The notes below the pieces were generated by a model. The model did no database searches. It was not told the DNA's origin and saw only the letters and a list, made by a program, of their open reading frames with translations. From contig CP002190.1 of assembly GCA_000525675.1 (NCBI GenBank), forward strand, positions 1,984,001 to 2,048,000: 64,000 nucleotides of DNA. Direction: 5' to 3'. A program made the translations under genes and the position numbers. The stretch comes from Bdellovibrio bacteriovorus W (GTDB lineage: Bacteria > Bdellovibrionota > Bdellovibrionia > Bdellovibrionales > Bdellovibrionaceae). Numbering within the stretch: the stretch's first letter is position 1; every line of letters starts with the position of its first letter. Below, in pieces: positions 7,273 through 55,241 of this stretch.

Positions 7273-7614
7273 TTTTTTATAACCACACTCTACGGCGATG
7301 GCTTTTCTTGAAGTAAATACTTCGAGCTTCTGCGTATAACAATCTCAACGTCGTCAAAAGAACGTCAGTATTTAAAGCGAATTTTTTGAAGGCAATAAGG
7401 CTGTGGGCTGGAGAACCCCCTATAAAGTGGGGCTTCGGCGGGCACGACGCCCGCGACCGCCTTTGGCGGTCAAGACAGCCGATTGAGCCTGGACAAAAAT
7501 AGCAGGATGCTATTTTTGAGCTTCAGCCCCAAAGGGGTCAAGGGCAGGAGCCCGCGACATCGCGTCCCCACTTTATAGGGGGTTCTCCAGCTCACGGCCG
7601 TTCGACTTCTTTAA
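7273..7614. other. Gene-free interval dominated by a structured element
   Basis: The 342-bp gap between two convergent genes contains no convincing reading frame. Its first ~125 bp show nothing recognisable; the rest is the inverted-repeat element annotated separately. Confidence 0.8.
7399..7599. repeat. Large inverted-repeat element with nested hairpins (element A)
   Basis: The outer arms, 7399-7432 and 7566-7599, pair over 34 of 34 positions; the only two non-Watson-Crick pairs (7402/7596 and 7406/7592) are G-T, that is G-U wobbles on one RNA strand. Inside lie at least five further hairpins: GCGGGC/GCCCGC (7438-7454), GACCGCC/GGCGGTC with loop TTT (7455-7471), AAAAATAGC/GCTATTTTT with loop AGGAT (7495-7517), GGGC/GCCC with loop AGGA (7542-7553) and CGCG/CGCG (7553-7564), plus CCCC/GGGG at 7527-7537. 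It is far too elaborate for a terminator. It may be a structured RNA, a palindromic mobile repeat, or both. A sibling element lies at 26498-26648. Confidence 0.85.
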
Positions 7615-24278: not shown

Positions 24279-25457
24279 ATGAATTTTACGAATTTGCAGA
24301 CCTTAGCTATCGCAGCCCTTGTTGTTTATTTCGGAATGTATCTAAAGAAAAAAATTTCTTTTATTGATCGTTACAATCTTCCCGCTCCCGTCATTGGTGG
24401 ATTTATTTTTGCTCTCGCCGTGTCGGTTCTTAAATCCTATGATTTTGTTGAGCTCAAGTTTTTAAAAAACTACGAAGAAAGCTTGATGATTGCGTTCTTT
24501 GCTTCCATTGGGTACTCAGCCTCTTTACGCCTTCTGAAAGAGGGTGGAAAACTAGTTCTTATCTTTCTAGCACTGGCGGTCGGTGGTCTTTTACTGCAAG
24601 TGGGTGCCGGACTTGGTGTTGCTAAAGTCCTCGGAGAACACCCCCTCATGGGAATTCTAACGGGCCCTATCGCCCTGACAGGTGGCCCAGGGACTGCTCT
24701 TGCCTTTGCGCCGTTGATAGAAGCAAAAGGCGTGGAAGGGGCTTCAATCATTGGCCTGACTGCCGCTATGGGAGGAATCCTTATTGGGGGTCTTTTAGGA
24801 AACCCTATCGCCACCTATTTAATTCGTAAGCATCGCCTGAAAGATGAAGTCACTTCTCAGAATATCAAAAAGTCTGAAGAGCTGATTTTGAAAGCATATC
24901 CCGGCAAAGATATTATCGTTACGATTTTAGCACTTTGTTTTATTATGGGGATCGGGACAACACTCAGTTCATGGATTAATGATCTTGGAGTTACCTTGCC
25001 CGTTTATATCGGCTCTATGGTCATTGCTGCCATTGTCAGAAATATTGAAGATGTAAAACCTATCTTCCGAATTAATCCAGATTGGATTGAAGAAATCGGA
25101 GGAGTTGCATTAACACTATTTATCGCAACAGCAATTATGACCCTTCGCCTCGAAGAACTGCGCCATGCGGCTTTGCCTCTGATCATGTTCCTAGTTACTC
25201 AAGCATTGTTTGTAGCCTTAGTAGCTTTAGGCCCCTCGTTTAGACTTACTGGCAAAGATTATGAAGCCTCAGTGATTAGTGCTGGATACGTTGGTTTTAT
25301 GATGGGAACTTCAGCAAACGCCATGGCAAATATGTCATCACTTGTGCAAAAATATGGCCCTTCTCCAAAGGCCTTCTTGGTAGTTCCACTTGTAGGATCG
25401 TGTTTTATTGATTTTATAAATGCTGCGATCATCACTTTATTTATTAACTTATTTTAA
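24279..25457 (+). CDS. gltS: Sodium/glutamate symporter
   Basis: A 392-residue polytopic permease with the GltS duplicated architecture: LPAPVIGGF in the first helix set, GPIALTGGPGTALAF in the first re-entrant loop, and GTSANAMANM in the second. It takes up glutamate with Na+. The frame opens at 24255, but the ATG at 24279 (MNFTNLQTL) fits the family N-terminus better; neither has a strong ribosome site. Confidence 0.92.
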   Translation: MNFTNLQTLAIAALVVYFGMYLKKKISFIDRYNLPAPVIGGFIFALAVSVLKSYDFVELKFLKNYEESLMIAFFASIGYSASLRLLKEGGKLVLIFLALAVGGLLLQVGAGLGVAKVLGEHPLMGILTGPIALTGGPGTALAFAPLIEAKGVEGASIIGLTAAMGGILIGGLLGNPIATYLIRKHRLKDEVTSQNIKKSEELILKAYPGKDIIVTILALCFIMGIGTTLSSWINDLGVTLPVYIGSMVIAAIVRNIEDVKPIFRINPDWIEEIGGVALTLFIATAIMTLRLEELRHAALPLIMFLVTQALFVALVALGPSFRLTGKDYEASVISAGYVGFMMGTSANAMANMSSLVQKYGPSPKAFLVVPLVGSCFIDFINAAIITLFINLF

Positions 25458-25506
25458 ACTGATCCATCACCATGGCGAAGGCTTTAACGGCCCTATTCCG
25501 ATTATC

Positions 25507-25540
25507 GGCGCAAAGATCTCTTTAGACTTTGCGCCTTTAT
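25507..25540 (+). terminator. Terminator after gltS
   Basis: GGCGCAAAG (25507-25515) pairs with CTTTGCGCC (25527-25535), followed by TTTAT. Confidence 0.75.
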
Positions 25541-25581
25541 ACTTTTAAGCCAGTAAGATTCTTGCTTCGGTATAGGCTTGT

Positions 25582-26454
25582 ATGTCTCAGCTATCCATTA
25601 AGCACTTCAGATGCCCCCATTGTGGAGAAAAAAACTTCTCCAAGCGAGGTTACTTCTATAAAAAGAGCACTAAAACTTACATCCCAAGATATCAGTGTTT
25701 GGCCTGCAAGAAGTCCTTTTCTACTAGAACTTTATCCCCTACATTTGGACAAAAAAGAGTCGATCTTAATGTACAGATTTTTAAACTTGCAACCTCAGGA
25801 GTAGCTCTAAGAGAGATCGCAAGACTATTAAACTGTAACTATAAAACCGTGTACTATAAATTTAAATGGCTCGGCCATAGAGCAAAAGAGTTTCACAAGA
25901 ATCAACATTTCAATTCCAAAGAAGTGTTTTTTGATGAAATGGAATCTATTGAACATACAAAACTCAAACCCCTTACTATTGCACTAGCAGTTAATGAACA
26001 TTACCAATTATTAGGTGTTCAGGTAGGAAGTATTCCCGCCAAGGGACATCTTGCGAATATAGCTTATAGAAAATACGGGTATAGAGCTAACGAGTCCTCT
26101 GATAAAATCAATGAGCTTCTTTTAAGCATCAGATCCAAAGCGGAATCCATTCAAGAAATCAAATCGGATGCAAAACCACTTTATAAGAAACTCGTACAAA
26201 ATATCTTCCCGAATGTTCCCTATAAACAGTTCACTAGCAGAGATAATAAAGAAAAAAGAAGAGAACAAAAGTATCTAAGCTCTGAAAAAAGAATCCATGA
26301 TCCACTTTTCCCACTCAACCATACCTGTGCTGTATTAAGAGATCACATCAAAAGACTTGCTAGAAAAAGTTGGTGTACATCCAAAATCAAAGAACATCTC
26401 GAACTGAATATCTATTTGTACATAGCTAAGCTGAATCAATACAGATTCATGTAG
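25582..26454 (+). CDS. DDE-type transposase-like protein with zinc ribbon
   Basis: A 290-residue protein: an N-terminal zinc ribbon (Cys11, Cys14, Cys39, Cys42), a helix-turn-helix (VALREIARLLNCNYKTVYYKF), and a RNase H-like core with Asp118 (VFFDEMES) and Asp196 (IKSDAKPL); a C-terminal Glu lies in KIKEHLELN. The layout resembles IS1/IS1595-type transposases. No terminal inverted repeats or target duplication were found immediately around the gene, so it may be an isolated or domesticated copy. The structured element B starts 43 bp downstream. Confidence 0.72.
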   Translation: MSQLSIKHFRCPHCGEKNFSKRGYFYKKSTKTYIPRYQCLACKKSFSTRTLSPTFGQKRVDLNVQIFKLATSGVALREIARLLNCNYKTVYYKFKWLGHRAKEFHKNQHFNSKEVFFDEMESIEHTKLKPLTIALAVNEHYQLLGVQVGSIPAKGHLANIAYRKYGYRANESSDKINELLLSIRSKAESIQEIKSDAKPLYKKLVQNIFPNVPYKQFTSRDNKEKRREQKYLSSEKRIHDPLFPLNHTCAVLRDHIKRLARKSWCTSKIKEHLELNIYLYIAKLNQYRFM

Positions 26455-26497
26455 TTCAAAAATAAGAAAATATTCCAATAGATTCCTTGAAAGCAAA

Positions 26498-26648
26498 ATT
26501 TGTGGAGAAGTCTAAGTGAGTCTCTGGCCGAAAGCGGCCTTTGCGGGGGCCTGGATGGCCCGAACCGATGCCAAAGGCAGCGGCCGCAATTGAGCTAGGA
26601 TGGCGTGCCGCTGAAGCGCTAGAGACTCACTTAGATTGCTCCGCAAAT
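26498..26648. repeat. Large inverted-repeat element with nested hairpins (element B)
   Basis: Outer arms 26498-26528 and 26618-26648 pair at 30 of 31 positions, three of these as G-T (wobble) pairs; the one mismatch is 26508/26638. Inner hairpins: GGCCG/CGGCC with loop AAAG (26526-26539, competing with the arm end), GGGCC/GGCCC with loop TGGAT (26547-26561), GCC/GGC (26570-26578), and CAGCGG/CCGCTG (26578-26613) enclosing CGC/GCG with AGGA in its loop. Architecture, size class, GGA loops and the shared ATTGAGC...AGGATG core match element A, although the arm sequences differ. Confidence 0.83.
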
Positions 26649-26682
26649 CCCTCGCTTAAAACCAGTCTAGTGGATCAGTTTA

Positions 26683-54144: not shown

Positions 54145-54383
54145 AATAACTCCGCCCCAGATTATAAGACGAGTTTGGAAAATGCCCTAAGTAGAAGAAC
54201 CCATCAGGAAATATCTTCCTTCCTGTCTATTTCTTGCACATCTAATGAGCAGCATCAAAATCTCACTTTTTTCTTGCCAGTCCTTAGCATTCTAGGAAAT
54301 AACACTCTGGTTTTCCGTATATGACACGAATATGGCGTGACGTTTCTACCAGGCACCGTAAAAGCCTGTCTATGGAGGGACTT

Positions 54384-55241
54384 ATGAAGTCCATTATTAT
54401 GTTAGCATTGCTGACTTGGTTTTCTTATCAAGGACATGCAGCCACTAGTTCCCAAGAAGTTCCGTATTACGGAGAAGCTTTTTACCGCGAACTTGCCAGT
54501 GGTGTGACCAACGACGATCTTAAAGACAGCCTTAAAAAAGTACTTCTGAGTTATCATCAAAAACAAGATGGTGACCTTGATCAAATCGTCAAAGGCTGCA
54601 ACGGAGAGAAGTGCTACGGCCATGTCTCTTTAGGTTACGATCGCGCACGAATTTTTATGATGGGCGTCTACTACCTAACGAAGACCAACAAAGGCTACGC
54701 GATCTACGACGTTTACTGCGATACAAATAAGACCACCGAAGACTTTATCCACGGCAACGGCCCAGGCCCTAAAAATATTCCTGACGGTGAAATCTTAAAC
54801 ACCGAGCACACCTGGCCACAAAGCAGATTCTCTCGCCGCTTTGACAAGAACATGCAAAAATCCGATCTGCATCACCTCTACCCAACAGACAGCGATATGA
54901 ACTCAGTTCGTGGGAACAATCCGTTCGGTGAAGTAGCTAAGGACTCTCGTGTTTTAGAATGCCCAGCATCGCGCACAGGAAAATCCACATCTGGAAGCGA
55001 AGAAGTTTTTGAACCACCAAAAAATCACAAAGGCAACGTGGCGCGCGCTCTATTTTACTTCTCTGTTCGCTATGAAATGCCACTAGGGAAAAACCAAGAA
55101 GCCTTCTTGCGCAAATGGCATAAAGAAGACCCTGTGAACGAAGAAGAAATCCGCCGCAACGATTTCATTCAATCTGTTCAAGGAAATCGCAATCCATTTA
55201 TTGACCACCCAGAGTTGGTGGATCGTATTGATAAGTTCTAA
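54384..55241 (+). CDS. Exported endonuclease I
   Basis: A 285-residue nuclease. Signal peptide to about residue 20 (GHAATS). The EndA/endonuclease I signature TEHTWPQSRFS...KSDLHHLYPTDSDMNSVRGNNPFGE gives the catalytic His and metal-binding Asn (beta-beta-alpha-metal fold). It cuts DNA outside the cytoplasm. I chose the ATG at 54384 because GGAGGG lies just upstream; the frame opens at 54321. Bidirectional terminator follows. Confidence 0.92.
   Translation: MKSIIMLALLTWFSYQGHAATSSQEVPYYGEAFYRELASGVTNDDLKDSLKKVLLSYHQKQDGDLDQIVKGCNGEKCYGHVSLGYDRARIFMMGVYYLTKTNKGYAIYDVYCDTNKTTEDFIHGNGPGPKNIPDGEILNTEHTWPQSRFSRRFDKNMQKSDLHHLYPTDSDMNSVRGNNPFGEVAKDSRVLECPASRTGKSTSGSEEVFEPPKNHKGNVARALFYFSVRYEMPLGKNQEAFLRKWHKEDPVNEEEIRRNDFIQSVQGNRNPFIDHPELVDRIDKF

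Follow-up and report, generated by a model that had tools for sequence, protein, structure and literature searches.

Element A and its neighbourhood

The window, the whole 64,000-nt stretch that was analysed, spans positions 1,984,001-2,048,000 of the 3.01-Mb single-contig genome of Bdellovibrio bacteriovorus W, and carries the two inverted repeats termed elements A and B (Table 1). Element A is flanked by a 102-aa ORF and, on its other side, by a convergent pdxH-like gene, whose 3′ end faces it. Its two arms, each of 34 nt and separated by a spacing of 133 nt, are 94% complementary, and pair through 32 Watson-Crick pairs, one T·G and one G·T. This agrees with the original prediction, which held that the outer arms pair over their full length when G-U is allowed and that both departures from a perfect palindrome preserve RNA pairing. 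The calculated folding energy of element A is −137.3 kcal/mol; dinucleotide-shuffled sequences gave −82.7 ± 5.3 kcal/mol (z −10.3), and 0 of 200 folded as well. The five or more local hairpins claimed to lie inside the arms were recovered in the MFE structure, which contains at least P3 and P4 (Table 1) and the hairpins at 7495-7517, 7526-7537 and 7542-7553.

That no gene product explains the element was also borne out, as the ORF list contains no ORF of ≥80 aa within this stretch. An Rfam search of the whole window found no family at threshold for element A, and a known Rfam RNA family was rejected because no match reached the gathering score; the matches in the window were one tRNA and one purine riboswitch, whose aptamer lies at 54295-54392 (RF00167, E 2e-8). 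The 22-nt centre of the element A arm has no second site in the genome at ≤3 mismatches, by which the idea of a guide, with the arm matching another place in the genome, was rejected.

Table 1. Coordinates of the features of element A and of the insertion sequence carrying element B (positions in the window)
Feature	Position	Strand	Basis or remark
Element A (whole)	7399..7599	+ (core-plus strand = + strand)	Inverted repeat, fold z −10.3, CM R1 match
Left outer arm	7399..7432	+	Hypervariable among copies, unique within own genome
Core hairpin P3, GCGGGC-ACGAC-GCCCGC	7438..7454	+	MFE fold; conserved in alignment A5
Core hairpin P4, GACCGCC-TTT-GGCGGTC	7455..7471	+	MFE fold
Conserved linker AAGACAGCCGATTGAGCCTGGA, interrupted P5 region	7472..7493	+	Alignment A3
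Inserted module C: hairpins AAAAATAGCAGGATGCTATTTTT, GCCCC-AAA-GGGG, GGGCAGGAGCCC	7494..7560	+	
Right outer arm	7566..7599	+	Complement of left arm, 34/34 positions including G-U
IS1-like insertion sequence, ~1.23 kb, ~20-bp imperfect terminal inverted repeats (AAACTGATCC...)	25456..26681	+	
290-aa IS1-like transposase of the IS carrying element B	25582..26454	+	NCBIfam NF033558, E 2e-11
Element B, second-subfamily copy 3′ of the transposase inside the IS	26489..26650	+	CM R2, 185 bits; inverted repeat I2

A dispersed, modular hairpin family of Bdellovibrio

Element A is one copy of a dispersed, modular, multi-copy hairpin family of Bdellovibrio, a point that the original prediction had missed; no description of this family was found in the open-access literature. 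A DNA search of its own genome returned partial relatives with similarity confined to the inner part, and each of these has, around the common core, long outer arms of its own, which differ in sequence from copy to copy yet are complementary to each other. Subfamily I comprises element A, L003, L008, L009 and L010, while subfamily B comprises element B, which had been named beforehand as a second element and does exist, and ten more copies; the segment TGAGCC-GGATGGCGT is common to both subfamilies. In the left flank of L010, an ISL3-like transposase gene lies ~100 nt from the subfamily I copy, possibly as a chance neighbour. Module C, a third hairpin module (CAAAAATAGCAGGATGCTATTTTTG...GGGCAGGAGCCC), sits after CCTGGA in element A. 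Two type-B copies, L018 and L021, have it at the identical core position, and L004 and L006 combine it with other arms.

A covariance model (R1) was built from five own-genome copies, and matched element A at 7402-7596 with 114 bits. With a limit of E 1, R1 gave 16 matches in its own genome, among them three that represent a copy read on the opposite strand. Among the 60 genomes searched overall, it gave 171 matches within the genus, distributed over 22 of 24 genomes with up to 21 per genome, compared with 4 matches in 3 of the 36 genomes outside the genus, which double as a false-positive control. The covariance-model search of Bdellovibrio genomes that had been proposed as a check, run here with R1, thus retrieved relatives in nearly all of them. 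Copy numbers range from 0 to 21 per genome and element lengths from 130 to 200 nt (some more), with arms free in sequence; 110 distinct copies were read. The exact core pattern was absent from viral contigs and was found, among named bacterial genomes, only in Bdellovibrio sp. UBA4095, this pattern being too strict for a survey. At five places in several genomes (L069-L073), two elements are divergently oriented 200-450 nt apart, and the intervals between them have nothing in common.

At the site occupied by element A, 3′ of pdxH, four relatives (L185, L190, L191 and L194) carry long-armed hairpins with a different core, GGACAGTCCTCGCG...GCGGAACTYGC, a part of which recurs in the hairpin of an insertion sequence in another genome (G019). 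Because of these other-core hairpins, the shape-defined hairpin family is probably larger than the part detected by R1. L077 is likewise a long-armed hairpin with this core, and some such hairpins have an A-rich loop of 70-100 nt.

The copies prefer intergenic sites between convergent genes (41 convergent vs 12 divergent, with gene calls that are ORF-based and approximate), and the right side of the element often lies ≤50 nt from the stop codon of the convergent gene or its terminator. At two loci, the element is present in G002, G006 and G023 and the site is empty in G020, with both flanks alignable, and the first of the two is also empty in G001 and G018; presence and absence at orthologous sites, the behaviour of mobile DNA, was therefore found at two loci. 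Upstream of a pilM-like gene, one element is common to five species with co-changed arms, a conservation that could reflect host function rather than mobility.

Element B resides in an IS1-like insertion sequence (IS), the boundaries of which were taken from an alignment of L011, L012, L013 and L014. Its transposase scored 44 bits against NF033558 (cut-off 100), and the match to Pfam DDE_Tnp_IS1 is also below its cut-off. A second intact transposase copy in the same genome is 98% identical, and the element B hairpin is also present in the other intact IS copy and in L012 and L014, both of them deletion derivatives. The hairpin stands directly 3′ of the closest transposases in G010, G011 and G013 (E 2e-15 to 4e-19), and in the G019 IS its arms are present with a different core. 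The IS-borne hairpin thus occurs in five Bdellovibrio species, including that of the window, and lies on the sense strand of the transposase, in the 3′ region. No hairpin accompanies a 58% identical transposase from outside the genus (G027), nor was one present at any of the loci examined for transposases with identities of about 44% or lower.

Covariation and strand-specific wobble in the stems

In a 117-row alignment of the family, 51 of 51 pairs vary on both sides, and paired cells account for 89.3%, compared with 53.8% after shuffling. The covariation score was 0.782, against 0.167 for the shuffled and ≤0.137 (about 0.14) for the slid alignment. This alignment had been fitted to the model, and hence two independent checks were made, using same-locus pairs and isolated mismatches. 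Between same-locus copies of 19 species pairs, double changes kept the pairing in 66 cases and broke it in 10, while one-sided stem changes led to wobble in 26 cases and to mismatch in 52, the latter including the outer flanks. Together with the covariation score, the 66 to 10 ratio upholds the earlier proposal of selection on pairing, in that the arms of relatives diverge and still pair.

The second check revealed a strand-specific wobble. Where a stem mismatch has a paired base to either side of it, it is G·T in 26 and A·C in 6 cases on the core strand; with a looser flank, the isolated mismatches were 36 G·T vs 8 A·C (p 3e-5), and 29 vs 5 after orthologues were removed. When orientation was assigned solely from the core motifs, there was agreement for 104 copies and no conflict. 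Since a G·T on one strand is an A·C on the other, it is the core-plus strand whose fold is preserved. Orientation was found to have no relation to replication direction (38/85 copies), nor, for copies between tandem genes, to the transcription of the neighbours (21 vs 19), so that a mutational strand bias is an unlikely cause of the G·T excess. We conclude that the folded shape itself is kept by evolution while arm sequence changes freely between copies; the core is conserved across dispersed copies, and the hypervariable arms go on pairing. The original prediction had read the retained G-U pairs as a sign of selection on RNA structure: the wobble proved significant and strand-specific, and RNA as the selected form is a possible rather than a demonstrated reading of it.

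Probable functional strand and proposed mode of spread

About half of the pairing-preserving double changes (31/66) are of the transversion type, which does not pass through G-U. This share is larger than expected had every change gone by way of G-U, and for this reason the palindromes may owe something to one arm being copied onto the other at the DNA level. An arm block of ~14 nt at one locus (L066) suggests such copying, being wholly different between G002 and G006 on both sides and complementary still, within flanks that are about 88% identical. As the sole cause, with template switching during replication maintaining the palindrome mechanically and no selection acting, this process is unlikely: with orientation unrelated to replication, it would not be expected to give a strand-specific G·T excess, and dispersed copies have kept a conserved core sequence.

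A transcribed core-plus strand acting as a structured RNA, either as a 3′ UTR stabiliser, as an insulator or as a CsrA-type sponge through GGA loops, is a more serious candidate, which we nevertheless consider doubtful. It would fit the excess of G·T over A·C on one strand and the IS-borne hairpin on the sense strand of the transposase. It would also fit the loops, since 123 of 316 loops contain GGA on the core strand vs 2 of 316 on the other, at least one GGA loop is present in 88 of 110 copies, and CsrA is encoded in 60 of the 60 genomes searched. CsrB/RsmZ-type CsrA-binding RNAs carry several GGA-bearing hairpin loops, and the Bdellovibrio elements resemble them in bearing such loops on one strand; unlike them, they have few sites per element and many CGA loops, and no promoter or terminator was seen. 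Against an RNA also stand the P3 loops, which often read CACGATG and lack GGA (40/110), the left flanks, which show no excess of sigma-70 promoters, and the orientation between tandem genes described above. Element A itself has neither a promoter of the sigma-70 type searched for leading in nor a terminator-like site after it. A stand-alone small RNA was rejected on these promoter and terminator results, and the discrete transcript of ~200 nt expected earlier finds no support in the flanks or in the tandem-gene orientation.

Known kinds of mobile repeat were weighed in the same way. One possibility is that its members are ordinary MITEs of the IS1-like IS, mobilised through terminal inverted repeats, and the hairpin within the IS in five species and the deletion derivatives speak for this. 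MITEs are likewise non-autonomous with terminal inverted repeats, and one subfamily here lies within an IS1-like element; MITE copies, however, have common terminal repeats, whereas the Bdellovibrio arms differ between copies and have only their pairing in common. Moreover, the terminal repeats of the IS, seen at the IS-borne copies and at L016, were missing on inspection from the flanks of solo copies, and no close transposase was found in the copy-rich genomes G005, G012, G017 and G021. For these two reasons the IS is regarded as the carrier of element B, not as its demonstrated mover, and the MITE explanation appears improbable, slightly more so than template switching. Lower still, and very improbable, ranks membership of the REP/REPIN elements moved by REP-associated tyrosine transposases (RAYTs). 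The likeness to REP/BIME/REPIN elements (PMC3733652, PMC6006769, PMC3116915) lies in palindromic, repeated, mosaic units between convergent or tandem genes, and Y1 transposases are present in most relatives, the two most copy-rich genomes having 12 and 10 (10-12 RAYT-like Y1 genes per genome were noted in G012 and G022). Yet copy number is independent of RAYT genes, the genome of element A having no RAYT (Y1_Tnp, PF01797) gene but a dozen copies or more. None of the eight best-scoring Y1 loci gave a model match, and no flanking hairpin was seen at the six that were inspected. REP palindromes measure 20-40 nt, their stem is fixed and they bear a GTAG tag (PMC3733652) or a CGTC tag, whereas the Bdellovibrio elements have 130-200 nt with long, hypervariable, covarying arms, no GTAG tag was found, and CGTCGC follows only some copies. 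REP/REPIN membership was rejected on the missing RAYT, the missing RAYT adjacency and the length and freedom of the arms.

What we hold to be probable, with real room for doubt, is that these are genus-wide, non-autonomous, modular palindromic elements of mobile type, comparable with MITEs, REPs and the double-hairpin elements of mitochondria, whose functional form is the folded, single-stranded core-plus strand. In each, three short hairpins make up a conserved branched core, which is carried by a long outer stem that is free in sequence as long as pairing is kept. A protein supplied in trans would presumably recognise the folded strand, which may be the substrate of spreading to intergenic sites, mostly between convergent genes; arm-to-arm copying may help to keep the palindromes, and one subfamily forms part of an IS1-like insertion sequence, at its 3′ end. 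Both RNA and ssDNA are possible as the functional strand. In 76 of 85 copies P4 has a three-base loop, almost always with a C-G closing pair and the sequence AAA, GAA or GCA, and a GNA/GNA internal loop is a recurrent feature beneath the arms. Three-base, C-G-closed loops and GNA/GNA motifs are unusually stable in DNA, and these features were therefore counted for an ssDNA form. A lagging-strand ssDNA element of the IS200/IS605-like kind was rejected, given the absence of a replication orientation bias in the 85 copies.

Other systems share this architecture in part. In parvovirus-type terminal hairpins, as in the Bdellovibrio element, a long outer stem surrounds short hairpins whose loops have three bases; the Bdellovibrio element differs in being an internal chromosomal repeat of a bacterial host, with no linear replicon. 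The mobile double-hairpin elements of organelles are dispersed, intergenic, GC-rich nested hairpins with no obvious transposase, in which structure is conserved more than sequence. The Bdellovibrio elements share this nested-hairpin, structure-over-sequence character. Unlike the organelle double hairpins and palindromic repeats (e.g. PMC2670323), they are chromosomal, bacterial, larger (130-200 nt or more) and partly embedded in an IS, with a multi-branched core. More tentatively than the reading favoured above, they could form a class of mobile elements recognised by shape, with a branched single-strand hairpin, a stem of any sequence, interchangeable cores, a putative enzyme and an IS1-like carrier.

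Bacterial repeat families are normally defined by sequence, whereas the long stem here has only pairing in common, so that searches by sequence similarity see just fragments of the core. The ~170 matches, the filled and empty orthologous sites and the IS copy provide a test bed for structure-defined spread and for the upkeep of palindromes. In predatory Bdellovibrio the elements adjoin many genes, and they may shape transcription termination or mRNA ends there.
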